Shown here one piece after another: positions 7,515-34,530 of a stretch of 64,000 nt of DNA (the stretch's first letter is position 1; every line of letters begins with the position of its first letter). The position numbers were made by a program, and so were the translations under genes. This stretch comes from Microcella alkalica (lineage in GTDB: Bacteria; Actinomycetota; Actinomycetes; Actinomycetales; Microbacteriaceae): contig NZ_JACGWX010000005.1 of assembly GCF_014137945.1 (NCBI RefSeq), positions 1 to 64,000 of the forward strand, in the 5' to 3' direction. A model generated the notes under the pieces. That model was not told the origin of the DNA. It worked only from the letters and a program-made list of their open reading frames with translations, and searched no databases.

Positions 7515-7578
7515 GAAGCTCCTCGGTTCAGCAGTTCAGCCTACCGGCGGGCGCGGGAGGGCCCCGCAGGGGCGGTCA

Positions 7579-7664
7579 TTGCCAAATGCAGGCACTGCGG
7601 GCTTCAGGGTCGAAGAGTTCGGCGATGCGAAGCGATCACGTCTCTGGATGCCTGCATTTGGCAA
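7579..7664. repeat. 86-bp element with perfect 16-bp terminal inverted repeats
   Basis: TTGCCAAATGCAGGCA at 7579-7594 is exactly repeated in inverse orientation at 7649-7664, separated by 54 bp. The element fills most of the gap between lysS and panC, and the arms are much more AT-rich than the surrounding coding DNA. It has the form of a miniature inverted-repeat element or of a bound operator pair. No target-site duplication is obvious at its ends. Confidence 0.65.
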
Positions 7665-7711
7665 CGGGGCGCTGAGTCTGCGGGCGGCGGATGCTCGCGC
7701 CGGCGCGCGCG

Positions 7712-8578
7712 TCAGCCGAGGTGCAGCAGCTGCGTGTCGATGAGCCGCGTCGCGCCGATGCGCGCGGCGACGAGCGCCCGGGCGACTCCGGTGAAGTCGG
7801 GCTCGGCGGGCCGAAACGTGGCCGGGTCGACGACGGCCACGTAGTCGAGCTCGAGCAGCGGCGCGGCGTCGAGCACGGCGAGCGCCGCCTCGAGCGCGGC
7901 CGGCAGCGCGGCGCCGGCCTCGGCTGCGGCCCGCGCGGCCGCGAGCGCGCCCGGGAGCGCGAGCGCCGCCGCCCGCTGCTCCGTCGACAGGTATGCGTTG
8001 CGGCTCGACAGCGCCAGTCCGTCCGAGGCGCGCACGGTCGACACGACATCGATGCGCGTCGGCACGTCGAGGTCGGCGACCATGCGATTCACGAGGAAGA
8101 CCTGCTGGGCGTCCTTCTCGCCGAAGACGGCGACGTCGGGGCCCGCGATGAGCAGCAGCTTCGCGACGACCGTGAGCATGCCGTCGAAGTGGCCGGGGCG
8201 GGAGGCTCCGTCGAGGATCTCGCCGACCGCCCCCGCCGAGACGCGCGTGTTGATGGGGCCGCGCGGGTACATCTCGGCGAGGGTCGGCGCGAAGACGACC
8301 GATACCCCGCGCCCCGACAGAGCGGCGAGGTCGGCGGTCAGGTCGCGCGGGTACCGGTCGTAGTCCTCCGCCGGCCCGAACTGCAGCGGGTTCACGAAGA
8401 TCGACACGACGACGAGGTCTGCGAGCGCCGCCGCGCGGTCGACGAGCGCGAGGTGCCCCTCGTGGAGCGACCCCATCGTCGGCACGAGCGCGACGGTTCG
8501 ACCCGCTGCGCGCTCGGCATCCAGCCGGGCGCGCAGGCCGTCGATCGTCGACTCGACGGGGGGCGGGGCGGGGCTCAT
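7712..8578 (-). CDS. panC: Pantothenate synthetase
   Basis: Joins pantoate and beta-alanine with ATP to give pantothenate (vitamin B5), the precursor of coenzyme A. The 288-residue product shows the HIGH-type nucleotide motif in PTMGSLHEGHLALV (about 32-45), the FVNPLQFGPAEDYDRYPRD segment, the conserved FGEKDAQQ motif and the KMSKS-equivalent LSSRNAYLS near residue 193. The start codon overlaps the stop of the DUF2520 gene (ATGA), so the two are translationally coupled. panD, which supplies beta-alanine and usually follows panC, is not in the window. Confidence 0.96.
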   Translation of the reverse strand: MSPAPPPVESTIDGLRARLDAERAAGRTVALVPTMGSLHEGHLALVDRAAALADLVVVSIFVNPLQFGPAEDYDRYPRDLTADLAALSGRGVSVVFAPTLAEMYPRGPINTRVSAGAVGEILDGASRPGHFDGMLTVVAKLLLIAGPDVAVFGEKDAQQVFLVNRMVADLDVPTRIDVVSTVRASDGLALSSRNAYLSTEQRAAALALPGALAAARAAAEAGAALPAALEAALAVLDAAPLLELDYVAVVDPATFRPAEPDFTGVARALVAARIGATRLIDTQLLHLG

Positions 8579-9366
8579 GCGGCTCCGGAATCGAGGGGGT
8601 CGTCGGGGTGGTCGTCGCGCGGATCGGCCTCGCCGGGAGCATCCGCCCCCGCATCGGCGAGCGCCGCGAGGTCGATGCTATCGACGGCCGCGGATCGTAG
8701 CGCGTTCTCGACCGCCGACCGCACGACGGCGCCGAGCACGCGGCCCGGCTCGTCGACTCCGATGTCGCGGAGGGCTCCCATCGCCTGAGCGACGATCGCG
8801 GTCGAGAAGTCGGACGCGGACTGGATCGCGTCGGCGTAGGCGACGCGGTGCTCCTCCGAGATGACGATCGGCTCGGCGCCCATCTCGACGACGAGGGCCT
8901 GCGCGATCGGCAGCACCGGGCTCGGCGCCGTCACCGCGCACCAGGCCTCGCGCAGTCGGACCAGGTCGATCGACGTGCCGGTGAACGCGAGAGCGGGATG
9001 CACGGCGAGCGGGATGATGCCCGCGGGCCGCGCGGGGTCGAGCACGCGCACGCCGTGCTGCGCCGAGGTGTGCATGACGAGCTGGCCGGGCTGCCACACG
9101 CCGAGGGCCGCGAGTCCGGAGACGAGGCCGGGCAGCTGGTCGTCGGGAACGGCAAGGATGACGAGCTCGCTGCGCTCGATGATGGCCTGCACCTCGAGGT
9201 GGGGGACTCCGGGGAGGATGCTCGCGGAGCGCTCGCGCTCGTCGTCGGTGCTCGCCGAGATGCCGGTGATGGCGTGGCCGGCTCCGGCGAGGGCGGCGCC
9301 GAGGACGGGGCCGACGCGGCCGGCGCCGATGATGCCGACGCCGAGGCGCCCGTCGCGGGTGGTCAT
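8575..9366 (-). CDS. DUF2520 / Rossmann-fold dehydrogenase-like protein
   Basis: A 263-residue protein with an N-terminal NAD(P)-binding motif GIIGAGRVGPVLGAAL (about residues 11-26) and a C-terminal DUF2520 helical domain. The layout resembles ketopantoate reductase and F420-dependent NADP reductase, and the gene sits directly in front of panC in many actinobacteria (Rv3603c is the M. tuberculosis counterpart). A role in pantothenate supply has been suggested from context but is unproven. It overlaps both neighbours by four bases (ATGA), placing it inside one operon. Confidence 0.88.
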   Translation of the reverse strand: MTTRDGRLGVGIIGAGRVGPVLGAALAGAGHAITGISASTDDERERSASILPGVPHLEVQAIIERSELVILAVPDDQLPGLVSGLAALGVWQPGQLVMHTSAQHGVRVLDPARPAGIIPLAVHPALAFTGTSIDLVRLREAWCAVTAPSPVLPIAQALVVEMGAEPIVISEEHRVAYADAIQSASDFSTAIVAQAMGALRDIGVDEPGRVLGAVVRSAVENALRSAAVDSIDLAALADAGADAPGEADPRDDHPDDPLDSGAA

Positions 9367-10916
9367 GCGCGGCTCCCGGCCGCGCTCGCGCGCCAGCGGT
9401 GCGTCGTGTCGGCGGTCGCGGTGCGGATCGACGCCTCGGCGACCTCCGCGAACAGCGCGAGGGCGGCATCCCGGTCGAGCGCCCCGAGCGCCGGCGTGAT
9501 GGGCCCCGAGACGGTGTGCACGTGCACGGCCGCGAGACGCATCGGCCGCAGCACAGGGCCCTGGCGCACGCTCACGCTCTGCATGCGTGGGAAGGGCACG
9601 ATCGTGAGTGCGCGCCAGATCGCGCCCGTGCGCAGCAGGATTCCGGCGTCGGTGAGCGCGAATCCGTTGCGCGGCTGCGAGAACCAGCGCAGCGCCCGCG
9701 CGCGACGCGGCGAGTTGATGAAGCCGTCCTCGCCCCCGGGCGACAGCATCCCGCGCTCGAGGAGCGGCAGGGCGTCGTCGGTCGCGACGTCGGGCAGCAG
9801 CAGGCGCAGCACCGTGCGCACGTCGTCGAGGTTGCCGACCGGGAGTATCGTCGTCTGCTGCTGGCCCGCAGCCCCCTGCTGCGACGAGCGGGATGCGCGG
9901 TTGACCGCGATCTGCCACCACCCGAACGGCCGCCACAGCAGCGGCTGGCTCACGCGCACCGAGTGGATGCGCCCGGGCGGCAGCGTCTCGTTCGAGGTCG
10001 AGAGCAGCCCGAACCCGACCCGCACGCCGTCGGGCGTCGACGCGATCGAGTAGCGCAGCGAGCGCGCGATGCGCGAGACGAGGAACCCGCCGACGCCGAG
10101 CAGGGCGGGCAGGAAGCCGATGAGCAGGAGGATGTCGCCCGTCACGACGACCGCGACCGTGAGTCCGATGCCGGCGATGACGAGGAAGATCATCGCGTCG
10201 GTGAGGATCGTCGAGCCGATCAGCCGGCCGGGGTTCATGCGCAGCACCGACTCTGGCGGCGCGAGCGACGGGTCGAGCTCAGGGGCGAGGAACTCGCGCG
10301 CGCGGTCCTCCAGGAGCGCGCCGACGCCCGGGCCGGGATGCTCGGTCCACTGCTCGGCGTCGCCCGCGATCGCGGACCGACGCGCGCCGGAGGCGAGGAG
10401 CAGGATCTCGCGGCGGAGGGCATCCGCGTCGGCCGATCGCAGGTACGACAGCTGCACGTTCGCGTCGTTGCCCGCGACGGAGATCTCGAGCTTCGCGGCA
10501 CCGAACAGGCGCGGGATGAACGGGCGGGCGATGTTGATGCCCTGGATGCGGTCGAGTCGACCCTTGCGGTTGGTGCGGAAGAGGATGCCCGACCGGACCT
10601 CAACGACCTCGTCGGTGATGCGGAAGGTGTGCAGGCGCCAGGAGAGGTAGAAGCCGCCGACGGCGAGCAGGAGGACGAGCAGGGCGACGCCGAATGCGGC
10701 GAGCACGAGGTTCTCGCGGAGGATGAAGTCGAGCGGGTCACCCCCGAAGTCGCCGTCGGGGTCGCCGAACCCCCGGTCGCCGAAGAAGAGGTCGATGACG
10801 CGATCTCGGAAGCTGCCGAGCACGAGCCCCGCGAGGATGAGCACCGCGAGCCCGCCGCGGAAGAGGGGCGTCGCCCGGTGCAGGCGGTGCCACTCGCCGT
10901 CGGCGAAATCGGTCAC
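9363..10916 (-). CDS. PH domain-containing membrane protein (YdbT-like, DUF304 repeats)
   Basis: A 517-residue membrane protein built from repeated bacterial PH (DUF304/bPH2) domains separated by pairs of hydrophobic helices. Helices are clear at about 20-38, 70-92, 225-245 and 250-270; PH-type beta strands follow each pair (TFRITDEVVEVRSGILFRTN; IASTPDGVRVGFGLLST; FALTDAGILLRTGAIWRALT), giving three PH units. Such proteins in other bacteria are linked to membrane stress and lantibiotic resistance, but the biochemical role is unknown. Coupled by four-base overlaps to the smaller PH gene upstream and the DUF2520 gene downstream. Confidence 0.88.
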   Translation of the reverse strand: MTDFADGEWHRLHRATPLFRGGLAVLILAGLVLGSFRDRVIDLFFGDRGFGDPDGDFGGDPLDFILRENLVLAAFGVALLVLLLAVGGFYLSWRLHTFRITDEVVEVRSGILFRTNRKGRLDRIQGINIARPFIPRLFGAAKLEISVAGNDANVQLSYLRSADADALRREILLLASGARRSAIAGDAEQWTEHPGPGVGALLEDRAREFLAPELDPSLAPPESVLRMNPGRLIGSTILTDAMIFLVIAGIGLTVAVVVTGDILLLIGFLPALLGVGGFLVSRIARSLRYSIASTPDGVRVGFGLLSTSNETLPPGRIHSVRVSQPLLWRPFGWWQIAVNRASRSSQQGAAGQQQTTILPVGNLDDVRTVLRLLLPDVATDDALPLLERGMLSPGGEDGFINSPRRARALRWFSQPRNGFALTDAGILLRTGAIWRALTIVPFPRMQSVSVRQGPVLRPMRLAAVHVHTVSGPITPALGALDRDAALALFAEVAEASIRTATADTTHRWRASAAGSRA

Positions 10917-11452
10917 AGGCCCGCCCGGCGGGTCTCGGCGACCGCGACGAGGTGGTCGCGCAGGCGCTCGGCGTCGGCGAGCGGGAGGCCCGGGATGAGC
11001 ACACCCGTCGATGCGGCCGCGGTCACGAATTTGAGCTCGGCGAGCCCCACGGCCCGCGCGATGGGCCCGCGCGTGATGTCGACGAGCTGCATGCGGCCGT
11101 AAGGCACGGCGACGATGCGCTGGAAGAGGATTCCGCGGCGGAAGAGCAGGTCGTCCTCGCGGAGGGCGTACCCGATCGCGCGCACTCGGCGCGGCGTGAG
11201 GGCGATGACGACGAGGAAGAGCACGCCGAGCGCGATGCCGAGCAGCGCCGATGGCGCCCAGCCGCTCACCCAGAAGGGGATGAACCCGGCGACGGTCATG
11301 ATCGTGCCGAAGACGGCGTACCCGGCGATGTCGACGGCGATGTACTTCGGCGAGACGCGCTGCCAGTCGGTGCCGGGCGGCTCGATCGAGCGCGAGGCGG
11401 GCGCGGACTGCTCGGCGGGCGCGGGCGGCGGCGTCTGCGGCTGGTCGGTCAC
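10913..11452 (-). CDS. PH domain-containing membrane protein (YdbS-like)
   Basis: A 179-residue protein with a Pro/Ala-rich N-terminus, two transmembrane helices (about 40-85) and one DUF304/bPH2 domain (GYALREDDLLFRRGILFQRI ... MQLVDITRGPIARAVGLAEL). It forms the short partner of the neighbouring long PH protein, the same pairing as YdbS-YdbT in Bacillus. The start is the GTG at 11452, preceded by GGGGGAG at a good distance; reading further upstream would overlap the DUF3180 gene. Confidence 0.85.
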   Translation of the reverse strand: MTDQPQTPPPAPAEQSAPASRSIEPPGTDWQRVSPKYIAVDIAGYAVFGTIMTVAGFIPFWVSGWAPSALLGIALGVLFLVVIALTPRRVRAIGYALREDDLLFRRGILFQRIVAVPYGRMQLVDITRGPIARAVGLAELKFVTAAASTGVLIPGLPLADAERLRDHLVAVAETRRAGL

Positions 11453-11490
11453 GGCGTCGGCTCCCCCGGGGTGGTCGGCGACCGCGCGGC

Positions 11491-11955
11491 TCACGGTGCG
11501 GCCGCGGCGGCCTCCTCCTTCTCGTCGTCGTCGGGCGGGAGCCGGCAGAAGTGCTCCGCCACGAGCGCCGCGATCAGGAGGATCACCGCCGCGACGAGCG
11601 TGCCCGCCGCGGTCAGCGTCGAGCCTATCGGCACGACCGCGCGAGACAGCAGATAGACGAGGATACCCGCCCCGCCCCCCGAGAGGAGCGCCGCGGCGAG
11701 CGCGCTCGCCTTCGCGAGCACGACCACGCGCGTGGCGTAGAACGGGTCGATGCGGGTGGCTCCCGCGGCCGCGCGGCGCACCGGCCAGGCGAGGGCGACG
11801 AGCAGCCCGGCGATGAGCACGAGCCCGACCGCGAGCGAGGGCGGTGGCACGAGCACCGGCTGACCGCGCATGGCGAGCGCGATGTCGATGCCGAACGCGA
11901 GCGCGAATCCGACGAGCGCGAGCAGCGCGAGCGGGAGGGGGCGCGAGCGGCTCAC
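11491..11955 (-). CDS. DUF3180 domain-containing membrane protein
   Basis: A 154-residue protein with four predicted transmembrane helices (about 8-26, 36-56, 78-102, 108-130) and an acidic/alanine-rich tail. DUF3180 is an actinobacterial family that nearly always follows folK, as in M. tuberculosis Rv3605c. Function is unknown. The start overlaps the folK stop by four bases. Confidence 0.9.
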   Translation of the reverse strand: MSRSRPLPLALLALVGFALAFGIDIALAMRGQPVLVPPPSLAVGLVLIAGLLVALAWPVRRAAAGATRIDPFYATRVVVLAKASALAAALLSGGGAGILVYLLSRAVVPIGSTLTAAGTLVAAVILLIAALVAEHFCRLPPDDDEKEEAAAAAP

Positions 11956-12464
11956 GCGGAGGCTCCCGCGTCGCCGTCCGGGGCCTCGCGCTGCGGTCGC
12001 AGGCCCGCCAGCAGGTCAGCGACGCGTCCGTGACCGGCGAGCTCGGCATCCGGCTGCACCTCGAGCCACGGGGCGAGCACGAAGTCGCGCTCGTGCGCCC
12101 GAGGGTGCGGCACCTGCAACTGGTCGGAGTCGATCTCGAGCGCCCCGAAGGCGACGAGGTCGAGGTCGAGGGTGCGGTCTCCCCAGCGCTGGGCGCGCTC
12201 GCGACCGTGCAGGTTCTCGATCGCGCGCAGCCCGTCGAGCAGCTGGAACGGGTCGAGGCCCGTATCGAGCAGCGCGACGCCGTTGAGGTACTCGGGCCTG
12301 TCCGGGTCCGGGCCGTCGAGGGTGAGGGCGACAGTTCCGTGCCACGACGACACGGCGCGGATGCTCGACTCGGGCAGCGCGCCGAGCGCGCCCACGGCGC
12401 TCATGAGCGTGGCCTCGCGGTCGCCGAGGTTGCTGCCGAGGGCGATGACGGCGAGGGCGGTCAT
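11952..12464 (-). CDS. folK: 2-amino-4-hydroxy-6-hydroxymethyldihydropteridine diphosphokinase
   Basis: Transfers pyrophosphate from ATP to 6-hydroxymethyl-dihydropterin, the step before FolP. The 170-residue product starts with the family motif VIALGSNLGDREATL and contains YLNGVALLDT and the RWGDRTLDLDLVAFG signature that binds ATP and magnesium. It lies in the folE-folP-folB-folK operon, overlapping folB and DUF3180 by four bases each. Confidence 0.96.
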   Translation of the reverse strand: MTALAVIALGSNLGDREATLMSAVGALGALPESSIRAVSSWHGTVALTLDGPDPDRPEYLNGVALLDTGLDPFQLLDGLRAIENLHGRERAQRWGDRTLDLDLVAFGALEIDSDQLQVPHPRAHERDFVLAPWLEVQPDAELAGHGRVADLLAGLRPQREAPDGDAGASA

Positions 12465-12823
12465 GCGCGACTCCGGTCGATCGCGACGGCGACGTCGGCG
12501 AACGGCACCGGGATCGGCGCCTCGGGCTTATGCACCGTGACCTCGACGCGCTCGATCGCACGGTGGGCGAGCACGACGGCGGCGACGCGCTCGGCGACGG
12601 TCTCGATGAGGTCGACGGGGTCGCGCTCGACGGATTCGACGATCTCGACGGCGAGCTCGCCGTAGTGCACGGTGTCGGCCACGTCGTCGGTACCGGCGGC
12701 GCGCGCGAGATCGAGGTGGGCGACGACGTCGATGACGAACGGCTGGCCGTCGCGGCGCTCGTACTCGTAGACGCCGTGGTGGGCCTGCGCGCGCAGGCCG
12801 GCGAGGATGATCCGGTCGCTCAT
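12461..12823 (-). CDS. folB: Dihydroneopterin aldolase
   Basis: Cleaves dihydroneopterin to 6-hydroxymethyl-dihydropterin and glycolaldehyde. The 120-residue product has the usual length and the expected blocks: LAGLRAQAHHGVYEYERRDG near the start, VHYGELAVEIVE in the middle and VEVTVHKPEAPIPVPFADV at the end, with the conserved catalytic lysine in VHKP. The ATG at 12823 overlaps the end of folP. Confidence 0.96.
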   Translation of the reverse strand: MSDRIILAGLRAQAHHGVYEYERRDGQPFVIDVVAHLDLARAAGTDDVADTVHYGELAVEIVESVERDPVDLIETVAERVAAVVLAHRAIERVEVTVHKPEAPIPVPFADVAVAIDRSRA

Positions 12824-13701
12824 GCGGCTCCCCTCCCGGTGCCGACGTCCGTGCCGACGTCGGTGCCGACGCCCATGCCGACGCCCGCCCCGCGCCACGA
12901 CGCCCACACGTCGAGCGCGCGGCTCGTCGCGGCGACGTCGTGCACGCGCACTGCCCTGACCCCGGCGTCGGCGCACAGCGCGCTCACGACGGCGGTCGGC
13001 AGATCGCGCTCCTCGACCCCGGCGCCCTCCGGCAGGAGCGCGCCGAGGAACCGCTTCCGCGATGCCCCCACGAGCAGCGGATGACCCAGCTCGGCGAGCG
13101 CCGGCAGTCCGCGCAGCAGCGCCCAGTTGGCGTCGGCGCGCTTGGCGAAGCCGATGCCGGGGTCGAGCCAGAGGCGCTCCGGCGCTAGACCTGCGGCGAG
13201 CGCGGCGTCGCGGCGCGATCGCAGCTCGTCGCGCACCTCGGCGAGGGGGTCGGCGTAGTCGCTCACGGCATCCCATCGATCGCTGCGGCCGCGCCAGTGC
13301 ATCGCGACGTAGCCGACGCCGAGCTCCGCGACGAGGGCCAGCATCGCGTCGTCCTCGAGCCCGCCGCTCACGTCGTTCACGATCGACGCGCCGGCCTCGA
13401 CGGCGGCGCGCGCGGTCGACGCGTTCATCGTGTCGATCGACACGCGGATGCCCGCCCCGGCGAGCGCGCGCACGACCGGCACCACGCGCGAGGTCTCCTC
13501 GATCGCGGTCACGGGCTCGGCTCCTGGCCGGGTCGACTCGCCCCCGACGTCGATGACGTCGGCGCCGTCGTCGACGAGCCGGCGGGCCTGCGCGACCGCG
13601 GCCTCGGGCTCGAGGTAGCGCCCGCCGTCGCTGAACGAGTCGGGCGTGACGTTGAGCACGCCCCACACCTCGGGCCGCACGTGCCCGGGCGCGGTGGTCA
13701 C
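12820..13701 (-). CDS. folP: Dihydropteroate synthase
   Basis: Condenses the activated pterin with p-aminobenzoate to dihydropteroate; the target of sulfonamides. The 293-residue product shows the pterin-binding signatures WGVLNVTPDSFSDGG (about 13-27), DVGGESTRPGA, the loop VNDVSGG, and the C-terminal LVGASRKRFLG. It starts at GTG 13701, overlapping the folE stop. The last residues are an unusual Gly/Val/Thr/Asp repeat (GVGTDVGTDVGTG) encoded by four 12-bp tandem repeats, beyond the conserved domain. Confidence 0.96.
   Translation of the reverse strand: MTTAPGHVRPEVWGVLNVTPDSFSDGGRYLEPEAAVAQARRLVDDGADVIDVGGESTRPGAEPVTAIEETSRVVPVVRALAGAGIRVSIDTMNASTARAAVEAGASIVNDVSGGLEDDAMLALVAELGVGYVAMHWRGRSDRWDAVSDYADPLAEVRDELRSRRDAALAAGLAPERLWLDPGIGFAKRADANWALLRGLPALAELGHPLLVGASRKRFLGALLPEGAGVEERDLPTAVVSALCADAGVRAVRVHDVAATSRALDVWASWRGAGVGMGVGTDVGTDVGTGRGAA
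12839..12886. repeat. 12-bp tandem repeat, four copies, in the folP 3' end
   Basis: Unit GTGCCGACGTCC with small variations, four consecutive copies. It encodes the (V/M)GTD-type tail of FolP, so copy-number changes would stay in frame. Confidence 0.85.
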
Positions 13702-26816: not shown

Positions 26817-26892
26817 GGCTCTGTAGCTCAGTTGGTAGAGCGCACGACTGAAAATCGTGAGGTCACGGGATCGACGCCCGTCGGAGCCACCA
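26817..26892 (+). tRNA. tRNA-Phe (anticodon GAA)
   Basis: 76 bases with encoded CCA. Acceptor stem GGCTCTG pairs with CGGAGCC allowing a G-T pair, anticodon stem CACGA/TCGTG with anticodon GAA. The T loop reads ATCGACG, so position 54 is A where almost all tRNAs have T. The 3' end is the probable chromosomal attachment site of the neighbouring integrase gene, whose stop codon begins at the next base. Confidence 0.96.
26865..26892 (+). other. Probable integration site (attL core) in the 3' end of tRNA-Phe
   Basis: The tyrosine recombinase gene ends one base after the tRNA CCA. Elements with this layout integrate into the 3' half of the tRNA and restore it. I looked for a second copy of the tRNA 3' end to the right, up to 34100, and did not find one, so the right-hand junction is lost, diverged or outside the window. 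Confidence 0.45.
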
Positions 26893-27897
26893 CTAAATCA
26901 CCAGGCCAGAGGCGGAACTTGCCGCAGACTCACCCCCTCCAAGTTGACCTCTCGACTGGGAGCCCAGGAACCGCGACAGCGCCGGAACAGCGCGCTGCGC
27001 AGCGAGGCGCCGCGTATCCGCGTAGAGTTGCGTCACGAGCAGCGACGAGTGCCCGAGGATCGCCTGCACGTCCGGCGCGGGTAACCCCGCCTCGAATAAG
27101 AACACCGCCGCCGTGTGCCGCAGGTCATGCCAATGCAGCGCAGGCTCGCCCGGGCCGAACGTCTTGACCCGATCGCGGATCGAGTGCCAGCCGAGCGCGC
27201 GGCTGAGATTCTTCGAGCTGATGAAGCCCCCGCGCGGCCCCGTGAAGAGATAGTCGTGCTCGCCCTTGCCTTCTGATGCCTCGCGCAGAATCGGCACCAG
27301 ATCATCGACCACCGGCACGCTCCGCCTTCGCCGCCCCTTCGTCGGCCCGACCACCAGCTCACCCTGAAACTCGGGTGACGCCGTGCGACTGACCTTGATC
27401 GTGCGTTCAGCCCAATCGACATCACCGACCCGGAGGCCCGCAACCTCGCCCAGCCGACAGCCGGTAAAGACCATTGCGAGAACGAACCGCCGGTACGGGC
27501 CCGACGCCGGGAGTACATCGAGCAACCGCCCGTACTCCGGAATCGTCAGGGCGCGCGCCGCAACGTCGGGAGCCTGGCCCCGACGCCGATCGATCCCCAC
27601 GCACGGATTCGACGGAATCAGACCGCCCTTCACCGCGACCCGGCACAGCGCGGACAGTGCCCCGAGCGCATCCGCTCGCGTGGACTCTGACCCCGTCCAC
27701 GAGGCGAACGCCTCTTCCACGTCAAGAGTCGTCAGCGAGTTGATCGGGCGCTCCGCGAACCATGGGGCGACCCGAAGGCGCCAGGCGTACGAGTAAGCAC
27801 GCTGCGTTCCTGGCGCGATCTTCGAGAACACGACGACGCGATAGCGATCCCAGAGCTCACCCACCCGGGGCGAGGTAATGTTTTCGTTCGCGAACAT
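26893..27897 (-). CDS. Tyrosine recombinase / integrase
   Basis: A 334-residue site-specific recombinase. An N-terminal SAM-like core-binding domain (about 5-95) precedes the catalytic domain, which has the catalytic Arg in FTGCRLGEVAGL (near 148), the HxxR motif HWHDLRHTAA (near 256) and the nucleophile Tyr in TQLYADTRR (near 290), so it appears active. Its 3' end abuts tRNA-Phe. A TTCGCGAA palindrome overlaps its start codon, suggesting repression by a local regulator. Confidence 0.95.
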   Translation of the reverse strand: MFANENITSPRVGELWDRYRVVVFSKIAPGTQRAYSYAWRLRVAPWFAERPINSLTTLDVEEAFASWTGSESTRADALGALSALCRVAVKGGLIPSNPCVGIDRRRGQAPDVAARALTIPEYGRLLDVLPASGPYRRFVLAMVFTGCRLGEVAGLRVGDVDWAERTIKVSRTASPEFQGELVVGPTKGRRRRSVPVVDDLVPILREASEGKGEHDYLFTGPRGGFISSKNLSRALGWHSIRDRVKTFGPGEPALHWHDLRHTAAVFLFEAGLPAPDVQAILGHSSLLVTQLYADTRRLAAQRAVPALSRFLGSQSRGQLGGGESAASSASGLVI

Positions 27898-27956
27898 GTA
27901 CGCAGACTACATGCTTTGTTCATGTTCGCGAACATCAACAGTTCGTGTTCGCGAAC
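27886..27956. promoter_or_regulatory. Three GTTCGCGAAC palindromes between divergent genes
   Basis: Copies at 27886-27895 (overlapping the integrase start), 27924-27933 (extended to the 14-bp palindrome ATGTTCGCGAACAT at 27922-27935) and 27947-27956. The centres are 38 and 23 bp apart. The arrangement, straddling both promoters, is typical of a repressor controlling excision genes. It differs from the actinobacterial SOS box, which has a longer centre. Confidence 0.7.
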
Positions 27957-27994
27957 GCGTGTCCAGCGTCGAACTTCGGGTCTACCCTTGGGCC

Positions 27995-28405
27995 ATGACC
28001 ATAGAGCCCGATCCGAAGGCGACCGAACCTACGGCAGGAGCCCGGCAGGTCGACGACGTGAACTTCCATGAGCTGGGGAAGCGACTCGTGGACCTAGGCG
28101 AGCAACTCCGACTCATCGGAAGCCACACGGCCGCGCACAAGTTCGAGGACGCCTTCGATCGCGCGGTGCAAATCGATGTTCCCGAAGTATGGGCCGAGTA
28201 CAACGCGACCGTCAGCGACGCGATCCGCCGCACGCTCGCTGGCATGGGCAGCTTCCGAAAGGACTACGCGAACTGGGAGCGCATCGTCGTGGAGTACGCG
28301 CTCACCAAAGACGTCTTCACACAGCGGGAGGTCGCCCGCCTACTTGGGGTCGGCTTGAGCACCGTCAATCGCTGGGCACAGCACCCCCTGAGCTACGAGG
28401 ACTAG
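27995..28405 (+). CDS. Putative DNA-binding protein, divergent from the integrase
   Basis: A 136-residue soluble protein I cannot assign to a named family. The last 30 residues (FTQREVARLLGVGLSTVNRW) form a clear helix-turn-helix, while the rest is helical (FHELGKRLVDLGEQLRLIGS and a following Ala-rich segment). The position opposite the integrase, with palindromic repeats in between, suggests it regulates the element or assists excision (inference). Its stop codon TAG is completed by the first G of the adjacent IS element, but the same stop would exist without the insertion, so the gene is not truncated. Confidence 0.75.
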   Translation: MTIEPDPKATEPTAGARQVDDVNFHELGKRLVDLGEQLRLIGSHTAAHKFEDAFDRAVQIDVPEVWAEYNATVSDAIRRTLAGMGSFRKDYANWERIVVEYALTKDVFTQREVARLLGVGLSTVNRWAQHPLSYED

Positions 28406-29345
28406 GGCGTGTCTCGTAACCTCTGCGGGATGTTGCGGCAGGCTGGGAGCGTGACGCGTACTCGTACTTTGTCGGATTCTGCTTGGGCTCGGATCGAGCC
28501 TTTGATGCCGATCGCTTCCCGCAAGGGCGGGCGACCGTTTCAGGAGCATCGTCGGGTGCTGGAGGGGATCGTGTGGCGGTATCGGACGGGTTCGCCGTGG
28601 CGTGATCTGCCCGCCGAGTTCGGGCCGTGGCAGACCGCGTGGAAGCGTCATCGCCGGTTCAGCGGAGACGGCACTTGGGATCGTATCTACGCCGAGATCC
28701 TCGCTGACGCGGACGCAGCGGGCGAGATCGAATGGGCCGTCAGCGTGGACTCCACCATCAACCGTGCGCATCAGCACGCAACGAACCTCCCGCGCGACAC
28801 AGGGGGCTCTATCGAGTTACAAGAATTTGCGGGAGGAGCCGCCTGACCACGCGATTGGCAGGTCACGCGGAGGGTTGAGCACGAAGATCCACCACCTCGT
28901 CGACGGCCGCGGGCTACCGCTGGTCGTGCTGGTCGGCCCCGGGCAGGCCGGCGATGCCCCGATGTTCCCCGTGCTCATGGACCACCTCAAAGTTGGCCGG
29001 CGTGGCCCGGGCAGGCCCCGCTCGAGACCGGACCGCGTCCGCGGCGACAAGGCGTATTCCTCGCGTGCCATCCGCACCCGCCTGCGCGAACGCGGGATCG
29101 TCGCCGTGATCCCCGAGCCCTCCGACCAGCAGGGACACCGGCAGCGTCGCGGCTCCCGTGGCGGGCGACCAGTCAGCTACGACGTCGAGGACTACAAGGG
29201 TCGCAACGTTGTCGAACGCGGCTTCAACGAAGACAAGCAATGGCGTGGGCTCGCCACCAGATACGACAAACTCGCGCTCACCTACCGCGGCGGCGCGGTC
29301 CTGCGAGCCATCACACTCTGGCTCAAACGCTTAGGAGACACGCCC
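28405..29345 (+). mobile_element. IS5-family (IS427-like) insertion sequence
   Basis: About 941 bp. Terminal inverted repeats GGGCGTGTCTCGTAA (left) and GGGCGTGTCTCCTAA (right, read inwards) differ at one position. A TA dinucleotide flanks each end, consistent with the TA/CTAG target preference of this group. It carries a transposase in two overlapping frames. Confidence 0.88.
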
Positions 29346-29348
29346 TAG
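28451..29348 (+). CDS. IS5-family transposase in two overlapping frames
   Basis: The first frame (from about 28451, GTG, to 28846) encodes the N-terminal DUF4096-type part (SDSAWARIEPLMP, GRPFQEHRRVLEGIVWRYRT, catalytic Asp in VDSTINRAHQHA). The second frame, in use after about 28800 and ending at 29348, encodes the DDE core (DHAIGRSRGGLSTKIHHLVD, RGDKAYSS, YKGRNVVERGFNEDKQWRGL). The frames overlap around the GGGGG run near 28803; the shift needed is +1 (or -2). IS427-group elements often use programmed frameshifting, so this may be a working gene rather than a broken one. The stop codon TAG uses the flanking target TA. Confidence 0.8.
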
Positions 29349-29422
29349 GGCTCCCGAAATTTCCCCCACAAGATCAAGACCAAACCTCAGGCCGAGAATC
29401 GCCCCTTGCGCTGGCGCTAACT

Positions 29423-29593
29423 TCAGCGCCGGTGATACAGAAGACCGCGGATCACCCAAAGCGTGCCGAAACCAGCGCAGAGAAGGCCAAGGAAGTAGAC
29501 GGGCCCAGCAGCCTGCATTCCGATGTTAACTCCAACTACCACGATTAGGAGAGCAACGACCAGCAGACCGATACCTGTCCAGAACATGCCCAC
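29423..29593 (-). CDS. Small two-helix membrane protein
   Basis: A 56-residue protein with two hydrophobic helices (FWTGIGLLVVALLIVVVGV and VYFLGLLCAGFGTLWVIRGL) and a basic C-terminus. The start was placed at the GTG at 29593, five bases after AGGAGG; an ATG two codons later is the alternative. Function unknown; within the island. Confidence 0.6.
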   Translation of the reverse strand: MGMFWTGIGLLVVALLIVVVGVNIGMQAAGPVYFLGLLCAGFGTLWVIRGLLYHRR

Positions 29594-29671
29594 GATGACC
29601 TCCTCTAGTTTGCCCGAACTGTATCGACGAAGCCTGAGGCAACGCAAGAGCCGGGCTCAAGAGTCGGCGAT

Positions 29672-30169
29672 TCAGCCAGCAGTCGGAAACTTGGGGCGCT
29701 TGTTCTTCCAGGGCCCCCTGTCGCCTGCCAAGGGGTTCCCGAGGAAGGCGCCCTGCATAACAAAACTTATTCCCCATGGGAACTCCGACTGATAAATGGT
29801 TTCGTACCGATACTCGATCTCCCATGGAACCCAGAGGCCCCGCGCGACCTGTCCGCTTGGTGATCCAATAGCGTTCAGCCGGTCGACTCGAGACCGCACC
29901 AGACTCACCCCCCGCGAGACAGCACCAATGCCGTCATTACGCCGCGCCTCCCCCAACTCCAAGGGCGAATGAGAAAAGAACCAGAGGTCGAAGTCGAAGA
30001 GGTGCTGGCCGGTAAGTTGCATCGACTCATCGTCGAGCTGCTCGATCAACCAAACGGCAGCCTCCTCCGGGGAAGCGCTCTGCGCATCGGAATGCAGGAG
30101 ATCGTTCAACGCTGGCATCAACATGGCCGTGTCCGACATAGGGGTATCGCGAAACTGGAACTCGGGCAT
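29672..30169 (-). CDS. Hypothetical protein of the island
   Basis: A 165-residue soluble, acidic and aromatic-rich protein (LFDFDLWFFSHSPLELGEAR, VPWEIEYRYETIYQ). No signal peptide, membrane helix or catalytic motif recognised. The ATG at 30169 has no clear ribosome binding site; ATGs 10 and 15 codons further in are alternatives. Codon use is less GC-biased than in the core genes, in keeping with horizontal origin. Downstream on the same strand lies the small membrane protein. Confidence 0.6.
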   Translation of the reverse strand: MPEFQFRDTPMSDTAMLMPALNDLLHSDAQSASPEEAAVWLIEQLDDESMQLTGQHLFDFDLWFFSHSPLELGEARRNDGIGAVSRGVSLVRSRVDRLNAIGSPSGQVARGLWVPWEIEYRYETIYQSEFPWGISFVMQGAFLGNPLAGDRGPWKNKRPKFPTAG

Positions 30170-30315
30170 AGCTCAAACTAAGCCCTGCGCGGTTAACAGT
30201 AAAGCGGCTCATCGCATTTGGGGGTGTAGCAACGGTCTAAAGCCTCCGGCCTCGAGCAGGGATCGGGCGATGTAGTTGGTGAGGTTCCGGAAGCCGAGGG
30301 CGGAGCCGCGGAGGT

Positions 30316-30319
30316 GCTC
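30316..30319. repeat. Target-site duplication GCTC of the nested IS (left copy)
   Basis: GCTC precedes the IS at 30316-30319 and follows it at 31667-31670; the uninterrupted ISL3 gene has it once. Confidence 0.85.
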
Positions 30320-30392
30320 TGTCGCGCGTCAGAATGTTTGGCAGGGGTAGTTAGTTGCTGATGCAACGCCCCAGCTGAAAGGTCTGAATGTC

Positions 30393-30710
30393 ATGAGTCG
30401 TCCCCCCACGATCCCCGCGGAGAAGAAGCTCCGCATCGTGTTGTCCGTGCTGCAGGGCGAGATCACGATCGCCGAGGCAGCCCGCCGTGAGAAGGTCTCC
30501 GAGCAAGCGATCGGGAACTGGAAGCGCCAGTTCCTCGAGGGCGGCAAGGCTGGGATCGAGGCGGGCAAGTCCAAGCCCTCGACCCGGGAGCAGCAACTCG
30601 AGGACGAGGTCGCCGAGCTCACCCAGGCTCTGGGTGAGGCAGCGGTTGAGATCCGCGTCTGGAAGAAGAGCGCCGAGGGCCGCTTGGGCCCTTCGAGGAC
30701 CTCGAGGTGA
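30393..30710 (+). CDS. IS3-type transposase OrfA (helix-turn-helix)
   Basis: A 105-residue DNA-binding subunit. A helix-turn-helix (ITIAEAARREKVSEQAIGNW) recognises the IS ends, followed by a Glu/Leu-rich coiled coil (QQLEDEVAELTQALGEAAVE) for dimerisation. The stop overlaps the start of orfB (GTGA), and orfB is in the -1 frame, so a fusion by frameshifting or coupled reinitiation are both possible. Confidence 0.85.
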   Translation: MSRPPTIPAEKKLRIVLSVLQGEITIAEAARREKVSEQAIGNWKRQFLEGGKAGIEAGKSKPSTREQQLEDEVAELTQALGEAAVEIRVWKKSAEGRLGPSRTSR

Positions 30711-31657
30711 TCCGCGTCGAGGCGGGCATGTCGACTTCGAGGTTCTGCCAGCTGATCGACATGCCCGAACGCACCTGGCGGCGCTGGCAGGCCAAAGCGA
30801 AGCAGTCCCGACCGCCGAAGGGCCCGTGGCCGCAGCCGGCGAGGGAGGCGGCCCGCGAGCTCGCCACGAAACACGCCTTGGCGCATCCGGCGTGGGGTCA
30901 TCGGAAGATCTGGGCGATGACGCGGCATGACGGTCATAAGGTGTCGCAGGCGACTGTGCTGCGGCTGCTGCGCGATGACGGGCTGATCCTGCCGTCCGAG
31001 TACCAGAGGCAGCGCCGCCAGCTCGCGGCGGATCGCAAGGCCGCGTTCGCGAGGAACCCGACGGGGCCCAATCAGGTGTGGCAGCTGGACTTCAGCGAGT
31101 TCGAGACCACGACCGGTGGCACCTGGCGGATCGCCGGGTGCCGGGACTGGTTCTCCAAGGTCGAGCATCCGTTCCACGTGTCGCCGACAGCGAATCAGCA
31201 CGACGCGATCGCGGCGATAGAGCTCGCCTTGGTCGATTACGAAGCGATGTTCGGGCACCCGCTCGTCGACACCTGCCCTATCGATCCCGAGACCGGTGAG
31301 CTGCTGCCGGTGGTGACGATCGTGACGGACAACGGCGGCCCGTTCCGGTCGCTGAATTTCGAGCTGTTCATCATGCGCCACCCCGAGCTACGTCACGTCC
31401 GCACCCGAGTGAGATCACCGGGTCAGAACGGGTCACGCGAACGCGGATTCGGAACATTGAAATACGAGCGGCTGTTCCTCGACGACATCCCCGACGCGCT
31501 CACCCTCGTCGAACGCGCAGAGGACTACCGCATCGAGTACAACACCGAACGTCCTCACGAAGCGATCGCCTGGAACCGGCCGATCGACGTGCACCTCGGC
31601 CTGGCCGACCCCACCATCCCCAACTTCGAAATCGAAGAAACCCTGCCAACTACTTGA
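30707..31657 (+). CDS. IS3-type transposase OrfB (DDE integrase core)
   Basis: A 316-residue transposase with an IS3-like HTH_21 region (HPAWGHRKIWAMTRHD, VLRLLRDDGLILPSEYQRQR) and an rve/DDE core: first Asp in QLDFSEFE, second in IVTDNGGPF, Glu in GSRERGFGTLKYE. All three catalytic residues are present. Starts at GTG 30707. The first Asp context, LDFSEFETTTGG, is not the usual IS3 DITY, so subgroup assignment is uncertain. Confidence 0.87.
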   Translation: MIRVEAGMSTSRFCQLIDMPERTWRRWQAKAKQSRPPKGPWPQPAREAARELATKHALAHPAWGHRKIWAMTRHDGHKVSQATVLRLLRDDGLILPSEYQRQRRQLAADRKAAFARNPTGPNQVWQLDFSEFETTTGGTWRIAGCRDWFSKVEHPFHVSPTANQHDAIAAIELALVDYEAMFGHPLVDTCPIDPETGELLPVVTIVTDNGGPFRSLNFELFIMRHPELRHVRTRVRSPGQNGSRERGFGTLKYERLFLDDIPDALTLVERAEDYRIEYNTERPHEAIAWNRPIDVHLGLADPTIPNFEIEETLPTT

Positions 31658-33162
31658 CGCGGGACAGCTCGAGACGGCCATTGATCGCCTCGGTCGGCCC
31701 GTTCGAGGTGCCGGGCCGGTCGAAGTAGGCGAGCACGTCGGCGGCGCGCTGTTTCAGCGTCCGGCCGAGGGCGATGACCTCGCGGAGCGCCCCGGGGACG
31801 CCGACGCTGACCGTGTCGATCAGCTCGATCATCAGCTGCTTGCCCGCGGCTCGGTCGGGGTCGCGGTAGGAGGCGACCATGTGCTGGTAGATGCCCCAGG
31901 TGACCTCGACGGCGGCATGCCGCTCGTCGGCGAAGAGCGCGTCGAGCCGCTGCTGCTGGCGCGGCGTGTGGAACGCGGCACCGGTGTGGAGGGTGCGGCG
32001 GGCGGCGTAGAGCGGATCGCCCTTGCGGCCGCGGTGGCCGTGGATCTGCTGCTGGACGCGCCGCCGGCAGCTGTCGAGCGCGTTGCCGGCGAGGCGGACG
32101 ACGTGGAACGGATCCATGACGGCCACCGCCTCGGGCAGCTCCTCGACGGTGGCGGTCTTGAAGCCGGAGAAGCCGTCCATCGCGACAACTTCGACGCCGT
32201 CTCGCCACGCCTGAGGTCGGGCGGCGAGCCACTGCTGGAACGCGTGCTTGGAGCGGCCCTCGACCATGTCCAGCAGCCTGGCTGGCCCCGTCTTGTCGCG
32301 GATCGGGGTGAGGTCGATGATGACGGTCACGTAGCGGTCGCCGCGGCGCGTGTGACGCCAGACGTGCTCGTCCACGCCCAGCACCGCGACCCCCTCGAAC
32401 CGTGCCGGGTCGTCGAGCAGGCGGCGCCTGCCCTCCTCGAGCACGGCGGTGTTGGCGGTGTGCCAGGCGACGCCCAGGCCGGCCGCGACGCGCGAGACGG
32501 TGAGATGGTCGAGCACCAGCGCGTCCAGCGCCCAGCGCAGTCCCGCGCGAGAGATCTTCGCACGCGGCTCCGCCGCCGCGGCCGTGTCCTGCCGCCAGAC
32601 GCGGCCGCAGCCGCTGCAGCGATACCGGCGCAGGCGCAGCAGCAAGGTCGTCGGCCGATGCCCGAACGGCGCATGCGCCAAGCTACGCGTGACCGTGTCG
32701 CGCGGCACGCCCCGGCAGCCGCAGGCGCGGCACCAGTCGTCGGCCTCGATGACCCGGCAGGCGAGCACCGCCCGGTCGCGCTCAAGCCGTTGACCCGTCA
32801 CCTCCAGACCGAGCTCGTCGAGCCGGCAGAACGTGGTGAGGCAGGGCGCGTCGAAGGTAGCGTTGAGCACGTCGAGGTCTTTCGGACGGTGAGCGTAGGA
32901 ACTCCCATCCTGGAAGACCTCGACCTCTACCCCGGCAACGACGCGGCACGGAGGTCTACACCCTCAACTGCGAAGAGCCGAGTAACCTTCGAGGGATTCC
33001 TCTAGATCTCAACCTCTTCGAAATGGACCCCGTACTCGCTTTGTGGGGCCACTTGCTCTGGGGGAGGCCTTTTGGTTGACAAGGCAGGCGATGGTTGACT
33101 GCAGATGCAAGGAAGACCCCGGCTGACTCTCGCCGGGACCGCACTAGTCACGAGAGAACACC

Positions 33163-34062
33163 TTGGACACTGACAGCGACCGAATCTTGATCCCTGGTGA
33201 GAACTTCCCGCCATGGCCGTCCATCAAGTTGGACTATGCCCAGAGCCTCGGTCGTGAGCTGAACGATCGAGTGAACGCTTGGCGTGAGAGGCTCGGCGCG
33301 GAGTCGGCCTCTGAGATTGCCGCTGACGGTAAGTCAGGAATCGTTCGTGCACGACTAATAGAACCTCCACCAATCATCGAATGGGCTCTTCTCTTTGGTG
33401 ACGTCCTTCACAATTACAGATCGGCGCTCGACGCCCTCGTCTGGGAACTTGCGCACCTGGACGGCCTTATCCCCCACGAGCGCGTCGTCCGAAGCATCTA
33501 CTTCCCCCTCGCGACCTCAAGAACGCAGTGGAAGAAGATCTCCGAGAGACAACTGGCGAGTGTGCCGCAGTTCGCGCTGGATCGCCTGGCACGTGTGCAG
33601 CCCTTTCACGCCCAGCCAGTAGAGAAGGGGATCGGCCTCACCTTGCATCGTTTGGACATCGAAAACAAGCACAGATCAGTTGTCGATATGACGCTCAGCG
33701 CCGTGGACAAGTCTTCTTTCGCCGTCGTCGTCAAACACCGGGAGGAGCCTCCTGTCGGAGTAGACGGTGAGCCTGACTGGGAGTGGAACGCTCCTGAATC
33801 CGGCATCACAGACGGCGACGAGGTACTTCACTTTTGGAGTGAGGACGCGATCGAAGAGTTCCTGGTCCCTCATCTGCCGCTTTCTGTGGTTGTTCGAGAC
33901 GGGGAGGATCCACGCGAACTCTGGGATCTTCTGCGGCATGTTGACGCACAGGTGGTGGCGACGTTCAACACTGTCTACCTTGGGTACGACACGGAAGATC
34001 ACATTCAATTCATAAGTGACCGAGGCCTCCGACTTGGAGCCCCCTCAATAGACCCGGAGTAG
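33163..34062 (+). CDS. Hypothetical protein of the island, HEPN-like in outline
   Basis: A 299-residue soluble protein starting at a TTG codon with GAGAG eight bases upstream. No named family is recognised. The segment LLFGDVLHNYRSALDALVWE (about residues 75-95) resembles a helix found in many uncharacterised bacterial proteins with the pattern GD-x-LHN-x-RSALD. The later part contains ENKHRSVVDM. GC content is clearly below that of the core genes, marking it as foreign. It is the last island gene before core DNA resumes. Confidence 0.7.
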   Translation: MDTDSDRILIPGENFPPWPSIKLDYAQSLGRELNDRVNAWRERLGAESASEIAADGKSGIVRARLIEPPPIIEWALLFGDVLHNYRSALDALVWELAHLDGLIPHERVVRSIYFPLATSRTQWKKISERQLASVPQFALDRLARVQPFHAQPVEKGIGLTLHRLDIENKHRSVVDMTLSAVDKSSFAVVVKHREEPPVGVDGEPDWEWNAPESGITDGDEVLHFWSEDAIEEFLVPHLPLSVVVRDGEDPRELWDLLRHVDAQVVATFNTVYLGYDTEDHIQFISDRGLRLGAPSIDPE

Positions 34063-34098
34063 GGCGAGTTGATTCCGGGCCCAACTCAGGGAGTACTC

Positions 34099-34530
34099 AT
34101 GGCCGACGGATTCAGCGCCGAGGAGCGCGCCGCGATGAAGGAGCGCGCCACCGAGCTGCGCGCAGAGGCGAAGCGCGAGAAGGGCGCGGCGAAGGCCGCC
34201 GCCGAGCTGCAGGACGTGCTCGACGCGATCGCGAAGCTCGACGGCGACGACCGCCCGCTCGCGACGCGGGTGCACGAGCTCGTGACCGCCGCCGAGCCGC
34301 GGCTCGCCCCGCGCACCTGGTACGGCATGCCCGCGTACGCCCTCGACGGCAAGGTCGTGTGCTTCTTCAAGGCGGCGGGAAAGTTTGAGGGCCGGTACTG
34401 CGAGCTGGGCTTCAACGACCCCGCGAAGCTGGATGACGGCAGCATGTGGCCGACGGTGTTCGCCATCACGGCGATCGGCCCAGCCGAGGAGACCGCGATC
34501 ACTGAGCTCGTCACGCGCGCCGTCGGCTGA
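34099..34530 (+). CDS. DUF1801 (YdhG-like) domain protein
   Basis: A 143-residue protein. The N-terminal third is a charged helix (EERAAMKERATELRAEAKRE), the rest a DUF1801 domain (RTWYGMPAYALDGKVVCFF, YCELGFNDPAKLDDGSMWPT). Relatives have been called iron-chaperone-like by fold similarity to frataxin; that role is not established here. Starts at the ATG at 34099 after GGGAG. Confidence 0.85.
   Translation: MADGFSAEERAAMKERATELRAEAKREKGAAKAAAELQDVLDAIAKLDGDDRPLATRVHELVTAAEPRLAPRTWYGMPAYALDGKVVCFFKAAGKFEGRYCELGFNDPAKLDDGSMWPTVFAITAIGPAEETAITELVTRAVG

Follow-up and report, generated by a model that had tools for sequence, protein, structure and literature searches.

A candidate regulator-operator cassette between a tRNA-associated integrase gene and a divergent helix-turn-helix gene in Microcella alkalica

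In the DNA analysed here, a stretch of 64,000 nucleotides from Microcella alkalica (hereafter the window), an integrase gene and a small gene transcribed away from it are separated by a short region containing repeated copies of one palindrome. This raises the question of which protein reads these palindromes, and what that protein controls. From the comparison of related loci, we consider it likely that the product of the divergent gene, a helix-turn-helix (HTH) protein, binds the palindromes and controls the integrase gene (int), which it would repress through the two copies closest to int. The locus is a real regulatory locus of a generally known kind, with an uncharacterised regulator-operator pair that is swapped as a cassette.

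Three palindromes between two divergent genes

A previous inspection of the same DNA, the sequence-only reading, had reported three copies of GTTCGCGAAC, one of them extended and one touching the integrase start codon, and all of this was confirmed in the window (Table 1). The middle copy extends to the 14-bp perfect palindrome ATGTTCGCGAACAT, and base 27895 is common to the first copy and the start codon of int (27895-27897, minus strand), the first copy, O1, lying within codons 1-4 of the integrase, which read ATG TTC GCG AAC (Met-Phe-Ala-Asn). Three exact copies within the 109-bp intergenic stretch were reached in 0 of 2000 dinucleotide shuffles. Across the window, TTCGCGAA is found 5 times against an expectation of 1.12 (at least 5 in 0 of 100 shuffles), and GTTCGCGAAC with at most one mismatch 9 times against 4.38 (at least 9 in 4 of 100 shuffles); it is thus the clustering that is striking, and the window-wide one-mismatch total less so.

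Table 1 Features of the window and of related loci (positions are those of the window unless a locus is named)
Feature	Position	Strand	Remarks
tRNA-Phe gene	26817..26892	+	ARAGORN
Tyrosine integrase gene (int), 334 aa	26893..27897	-	Pfam Phage_integrase 4e-24; PHROG integrase 2e-59
Operator O1 (putative), GTTCGCGAAC	27886..27895		exact; same place in L006/L128
Putative int -10, TAGTCT	27904..27909	-	6 nt before int ATG
Operator O2 (putative), ATGTTCGCGAACAT, 14-bp palindrome	27922..27935		exact GTTCGCGAAC at 27924-27933; one-mismatch counterpart in L006
Operator O3 (putative), GTTCGCGAAC	27947..27956		exact; ends 38 nt before HTH start codon
Putative HTH-gene -10, TACCCT	27983..27988	+	6 nt before ATG
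HTH regulator gene (regulator A), 136 aa	27995..28405	+	divergent from int
Insertion sequence, GGGCGTGTCTC ends (approximate)	28406..29346	+	overlapping transposase-like frames; behind HTH stop codon
26-nt sequence TCCCGAAATTTCCCCCACAAGATCAA	29352..29377	+	beyond regulator gene as seen from int
Two more transposase-like regions	30393-31657; 31650-32870		in stretch absent from relatives
Intact elements	L005 4878-9860; L006 4768-9597; L020 (G312) 8474-13143; L021 (G080) 6028-9750
Protein B genes	L127 998-1438; L130 2534-2941; L131 1042-1434; L133 1013-1414	L130 -

The tRNA-Phe gene adjoins the 3' end of int, and its 3' part is presumed to be the attachment (att) core on the attL side. Residues R148, H257, R260, H283 and Y292 of the integrase, which we take to be the catalytic ones, are common to the three integrases that were compared. 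The divergent gene proved real as well, with a product of 136 residues; its open frame extends back to 27878, and the start codon was picked by conservation. As for the C-terminal HTH ascribed to this protein by the sequence-only reading, it is seen in an AlphaFold2 model built from five sequences, which is helical (mean pLDDT 82) with a long helix at 63-104 and HTH helices at 110-117 and 121-129, but the Pfam and NCBIfam matches of this part are weak and all lie under the curated cut-offs, including that to the BldC-type regulator NF033787 (18.2 bits, cut-off 77). A Foldseek search with the model against pdb and viral structures returned no match at E <= 0.001, the fold search giving a weak, HTH-level likeness.

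A scan for consensus sigma-70 promoters across the region found none, and the -10 assignments in Table 1 therefore depend on spacing and conservation. The position of TAGTCT, 6 nt ahead of the int ATG, suggests that the int mRNA is leaderless, and both the window and the L006 integrases have a -10-like hexamer 6-7 nt ahead of an ATG that adjoins a palindrome. On the other side, TAC[CG]CT followed after 6-7 nt by ATG stands ahead of the HTH gene in all five homologues, a layout that would suit a leaderless promoter whose operator has its centre near -43. If int is leaderless, O1 would occupy +3 to +12 and O2 would cover the -35 region of its promoter; relative to a leaderless start of the HTH gene, the centre of O3 would fall at about -43.5.

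Our preferred reading, which we consider likely, is that the 71-bp stretch from 27886 to 27956 is a divergent control region, and that the three GTTCGCGAAC operators are bound by the 136-residue protein, which probably dimerises. Because O1 coincides with the point at which transcription and translation of int would begin, and O2 with the -35 region, such binding would silence int once the element is established; an element that has newly entered a cell would contain no regulator yet, and its integrase would be free to act. Phage lambda CI, when bound at O_R2, activates its own gene. A protein bound at O3, at about -43 of the regulator's promoter, could act on its own gene in either direction; auto-activation, as by CI at O_R2, is one possibility, repression the other, and we infer that the HTH protein controls its own gene through O3 in one of these two ways.

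The palindrome follows the regulator

Homologues of the HTH protein (regulator A) were detected at E <= 0.001 in 5 of 398 family genomes, including the window's own, Naasia sp. SYSU D00057 and a Salinibacterium MAG; the five loci, all from one bacterial family, were obtained after counting L008 and L010, duplicates of L005 and L006, once. The HTH gene is divergent from the integrase gene in each of them. The homologues are 36-51% identical to the window protein over the alignment, and LGV..[ST]T.NRWAQ.PL, in the recognition-helix region, is nearly invariant among the five sequences. In addition to the three exact sites of the window, the intergenic regions hold one exact site and two with one mismatch in L006, two exact sites in L009, and one exact site, situated inside a 26-bp perfect palindrome, plus one with one mismatch in L011; L005 has none with up to one mismatch and one with two. 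The distance from the O3-type site to the HTH start codon is 38, 38, 37, 38 and 37 nt in the window, L005, L006, L009 and L011, respectively; the HTH start codons were picked by conservation throughout, and the value for L011 hinges on this choice, longer open frames being present there too. The half GTTCGC at O3 is kept in all five loci, one of the five sites being degenerate. L009 retains ATGTTCGCGAAC even though its ATG runs into an in-frame stop after 13 codons, and conservation of the motif is thus not due to coding. The sequence-only reading would have been undermined by an absence of the motif near homologues; it is present in four of the five, the degenerate exception being the Naasia locus (L005/L129), whose regulator is 52% identical with the same recognition helix apart from an S to T change, and whose O3 position holds GTTCGCTATC alone, a match equalled by 61 of 2000 shuffles. 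Of the three copies of TTCGCGAA in L006, one falls within the HTH gene and another outside the element.

Plasmids and phages gave no relatives of the HTH protein at E <= 0.01, and of 52 stretches in viral contigs that fit a pattern none was confirmed. Profile searches of 396 genomes of the order and of 398 relatives yielded seven weak, partial matches outside the family (L012-L018, E 2.8e-12 to 9.7e-4), which were omitted from all counts; no palindrome cluster occurs near any of the seven, two of which hold one distant TTCGCGAA.

The association can also be viewed from the side of the integrase, which has 55 matches at E <= 1e-30 in 49 of 369 family genomes. For the best 30 of these 55, the stretch from -250 to +40 of int was searched for the motif with at most one mismatch, and loci of roughly 4 kb were searched for regulators. 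A palindrome precedes int in four of the five loci that have regulator A and in none of the 25 that lack it, the 25 including six loci (L134 and L151-L155) of which L134, L151 and L152, and to a lesser degree L153-L155, have a match that begins late in the protein, so that the presumed int start, and with it the stretch searched, was extrapolated. Fisher's test gives 1.8e-4, or 1.1e-3 when the window is left out, with kin loci that are not fully independent.

Seven of the 25 loci that lack regulator A (L127, L130, L131, L133, L142, L143 and L150) have instead a small protein, B, and the repeats TAGTC[GT]C / G[AC]GACTA. Protein B, with 130-146 residues in the five cases measured and PSPEGEGRAK near its N-terminal start, is encoded directly before int and in the same direction in all seven. 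Its repeats are found in 7 of 7 B loci, in one to four copies (a single one in L143), and in 0 of 23 others; the motif having been derived from L127, L130, L131 and L133, the independent cases are L142, L143 and L150, three out of three. In L127, L130 and L131 the int start is spanned by inverted repeats whose arms measure 7 bp, and in L133 such a repeat lies just ahead of the aligned int start. Three members of protein B compared with Pfam had no match above cut-off, and its role as a regulator is our inference. Motif A is absent from all seven B loci and motif B from all five A loci, and the 18 remaining loci have neither protein and neither motif. A distant relationship between A and B was considered and found unsupported, hhalign giving a probability of 4.5% (E 0.009) for an alignment over the HTH part.

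The integrase tree places these two arrangements side by side. The window (L126, A) forms a clade with L127 (B), L128 (A) and L129 (A) (support 100/99), as does L149 (A) with L150 (B) (support 96/87); in that tree L142, L143 and L150 bear the label 'none', their B assignment coming from a later search. The closest integrase found, that of L127 (77% identical), carries B, and the 39% identical L149 carries A. Integrases that are close relatives thus bear either A or B, and the operator tracks the regulator rather than the integrase, which indicates that regulator and operators are exchanged as one cassette before the same integrase type. Of the evidence on which protein binds which site, this association, obtained from comparative data, is the strongest. 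Together with the spacing of O3, fixed in five of five loci, it makes the neighbouring HTH protein, proposed as binder by the sequence-only reading, the best candidate by far.

Other proteins that could read the palindromes

The region had originally been described as an excision switch, a designation that we do not retain: the HTH protein scores below the excisionase cut-off, the palindromes are about 1 kb from the att core, and a right-hand attachment site (attR) was not found. One could nevertheless speculate that the main role of the protein is that of a recombination directionality factor (excisionase), with repression of int in addition. Its gene sits beside int in compact elements in which we noticed no other xis candidate, and it has a weak similarity to the family, at 17.4 bits for Xis/excisionase TIGR01764 (cut-off 28.8) and E 0.003 for PHROG 66. 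Its presumed sites, however, are remote from the att core, and across the five elements scanned no site with up to one mismatch occurs near the int 3' end or anywhere else beyond the int-HTH intergenic region, and we regard this explanation as doubtful.

Another possibility is that a host-encoded regulator binds the palindromes and that the HTH protein serves a different role. In its favour are palindrome pairs beside other genes in viral contigs, where two close palindromes occur in 12 stretches; nine were judged coding, and three look non-coding (L031 3664-3701 and 3802, L030 6157-6213, L037 503-532, pairs or triplets with other neighbours). In L031 they are flanked on one side by a small protein whose HTH_17 match is sub-threshold and on the other by a 138-codon frame that matches nothing in Pfam; a Phage_integrase gene is nearby. 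A 15-base extended motif is found in 26 viral stretches, all of which except L030 were judged coding; ten distant integrase relatives in viral contigs were kept outside the motif counts. Against it, of 24 exact copies of GTTCGCGAAC in the whole 2.74-Mb genome, three are at the window locus, 18 of the remaining 21 are in frames of coding type by our own GC-phase rule, used in place of a gene caller, and the other three are in open frames of 531, 547 and 531 codons. (In two contigs of this genome, L058 and L065, the palindrome falls within a stretch that is 99.8% identical over 1661 bp and has an open frame of 531 codons in each; either the genome or the assembly is duplicated here.) Pairs of exact palindromes with a separation of 8-38 bp were found in 4 of 398 family genomes, two of this locus type (the window and G312) and two with pairs in open frames judged coding, and a reversed control pattern was hit in 3 of the 398. 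As the motif moreover tracks the HTH gene across genera, we consider a host regulator improbable.

Known sites of related appearance were compared as well. The LexA/SOS box consensus has its half-sites in the order opposite to that of GTTC-GC-GAAC and was ruled out on this ground; the ClgR-type site, GTTCGC-N5-GCGAAC, was ruled out by its spacing. A paper on plasmid RA3 that contains GTTCGCGAAC is irrelevant, the string belonging to a mutated oligonucleotide (PMC9455977). Searches of the open-access literature on the motif and on the control of integrases in actinobacterial elements turned up no account of regulator A or its operator, and as far as these searches reach the description of the switch as uncharacterised holds.

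The integrase itself might bind the palindromes and regulate its own gene, as in KplE1. Negative autoregulation has been proposed to be common among tRNA-associated integrases (PMC2951348), and one palindrome touches the int start codon. Against this, the att core is at the int 3' end, about 1 kb from the int promoter, and L127 lacks the motif, which is present at the much more distant L149, at a tRNA-Met; autoregulation by the integrase is therefore quite improbable in our judgement. Finally, chance clustering or a Met-Phe-Ala-Asn coding coincidence with no regulatory role, to which the overlap of O1 with integrase residues 1-4 and the mostly coding copies elsewhere in the genome might point, is scarcely credible given the shuffles, the conserved position in homologues, the location of O2 and O3 outside both genes as we read them and the L009 copy kept outside the integrase frame, and was already unlikely because of the co-occurrence data.

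The surrounding element and its resemblance to known systems

Four relatives could be delimited as intact elements of about 4943, 4790, 4625 and 3678 bp (L005, L006, L020 and L021), all bounded by exact tRNA-end repeats of at least 40 bp. L005, L006 and L020 repeat the same tRNA end as the window; the site is tRNA-Phe in three relatives and tRNA-Met in the fourth. In each of them int and the HTH gene are accompanied by one to three cargo frames, and the far end is occupied by an initiator of the RepSA type, with PF20199 above cut-off in all four. The cargo includes, in L005, an AAA_15 ATPase whose match to an OLD-like TOPRIM is sub-threshold, in L006 an AIPR protein, and in L020 DUF6941 together with a ribbon-helix-helix protein (RHH_3 29.2 bits, cut-off 21.6), the latter being another possible DNA-binder candidate there; the AAA_15/OLD-like and AIPR proteins are presumably of kinds met in phage defence. 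With respect to actinomycete integrative and conjugative elements (AICEs), which have a tyrosine or serine integrase, a RepSA/RepAM/Prim-Pol replication module and an FtsK/SpoIIIE-type Tra protein, an integrase at a tRNA att site is present in the window and the four relatives, and an FtsK/SpoIIIE-type Tra protein was not found in the four delimited relatives, whose main frames (at least 70 codons) gave no Pfam match for a transfer gene or FtsK. Intact elements of 3.7-4.9 kb in which no transfer gene was found are perhaps hitch-hikers on other elements.

The window copy is most likely a remnant, and it looks immobile, with int and regulator frames still open. A search of the window and the whole genome for attR with up to three mismatches yielded the tRNA alone, and the copy should therefore be unable to excise via attL x attR. 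The RepSA-type protein of L005, compared with the window for a replication module as in AICEs, gave no match below E 0.4. Three transposase-like regions follow the HTH gene (Table 1); the first, outside the switch, we assume to be IS5-like, and the other two IS3- and ISL3-like, respectively. The stretch from about 26893 to 34102 is absent from five genus relatives, which have 0.3 to 5.6 kb of other DNA instead and re-align from 34102-34105; as a conserved gene begins at this point, the right border can only be placed somewhere before it. It is the missing rep match, the transposase-like regions, the missing attR and the relatives without the stretch that together point to a remnant. In one genus relative (G137 C1:2411180-2422719), the tRNA-Phe end recurs twice downstream of the tRNA gene, with matches of 51 and 44 nt, which suggests two tandem elements at this hotspot.

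The 26-nt sequence of Table 1 recurs at L005 6421, L006 6413 and L009 1221 (minus), and the pattern TCCCGAAATNTYCYNYACARGATCAA, derived from the five regulator-A loci, is present on the far side of the regulator gene from int in 12 of 12 A or B loci and 0 of 18 other integrase loci. Our guess would be that it marks a nick or origin region for the RepSA-type initiator.

What the exchange of cassettes might mean can be stated tentatively. One reading, which we put forward as a conjecture that may well not hold, is that cassettes A (HTH protein, GTTCGCGAAC) and B (PSPEGEGR protein) are exchanged on one integrase lineage, in tiny RepSA-type elements that share their tRNA sites, and act like phage immunity groups. 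A resident regulator would then silence incoming integrases bearing the same operator, operator type rather than integrase type would decide which elements can share a tRNA locus, and remnants whose int and regulator frames are still open could keep newcomers out. More generally, an uncharacterised HTH family gains a concrete, testable DNA target, and integrase control appears to be swappable as a cassette with integrase and tRNA target staying in place. If true, the latter bears on how small elements that use one tRNA site avoid mutual eviction or crowding, and an int switch that is compact and predictable would be on offer.

Compared with known systems, the arrangement first recalls the lambda CI/O_R switch, in which three operators separate the gene of the regulator from a gene that diverges from it. 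The three putative operators here are likewise placed between the presumed regulator's gene and a divergent one, O3 near -43 resembling an activating position, but the controlled gene is the integrase gene and not cro. The tyrosine integrase at a tRNA gene and, in the four relatives, the RepSA-type initiator are reminiscent of pSAM2, where int, xis and repSA make up a single operon that Pra activates, and the GntR-type KorSA represses pra (PMC3218068). In contrast to pSAM2, int here stands alone; the gene from which it diverges encodes a different HTH regulator, which has a presumed operator of its own, rep lies at the opposite end, and a transfer gene was not found in the scanned frames of the 3.7-4.9 kb relatives. 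With KplE1 intS the locus shares a tRNA-associated integrase gene and a tight negative control by element-encoded proteins (PMC2951348 for KplE1), which for our locus is the predicted behaviour. In KplE1, attL overlaps the int promoter, and Int and RDF (IntS/TorI) repress it; such an overlap is absent from the window, where the tRNA and att core occupy 26817-26892 and the promoter side of int is at about 27900. The att core thus lies at the opposite end of int, and the operators track a separate regulator.
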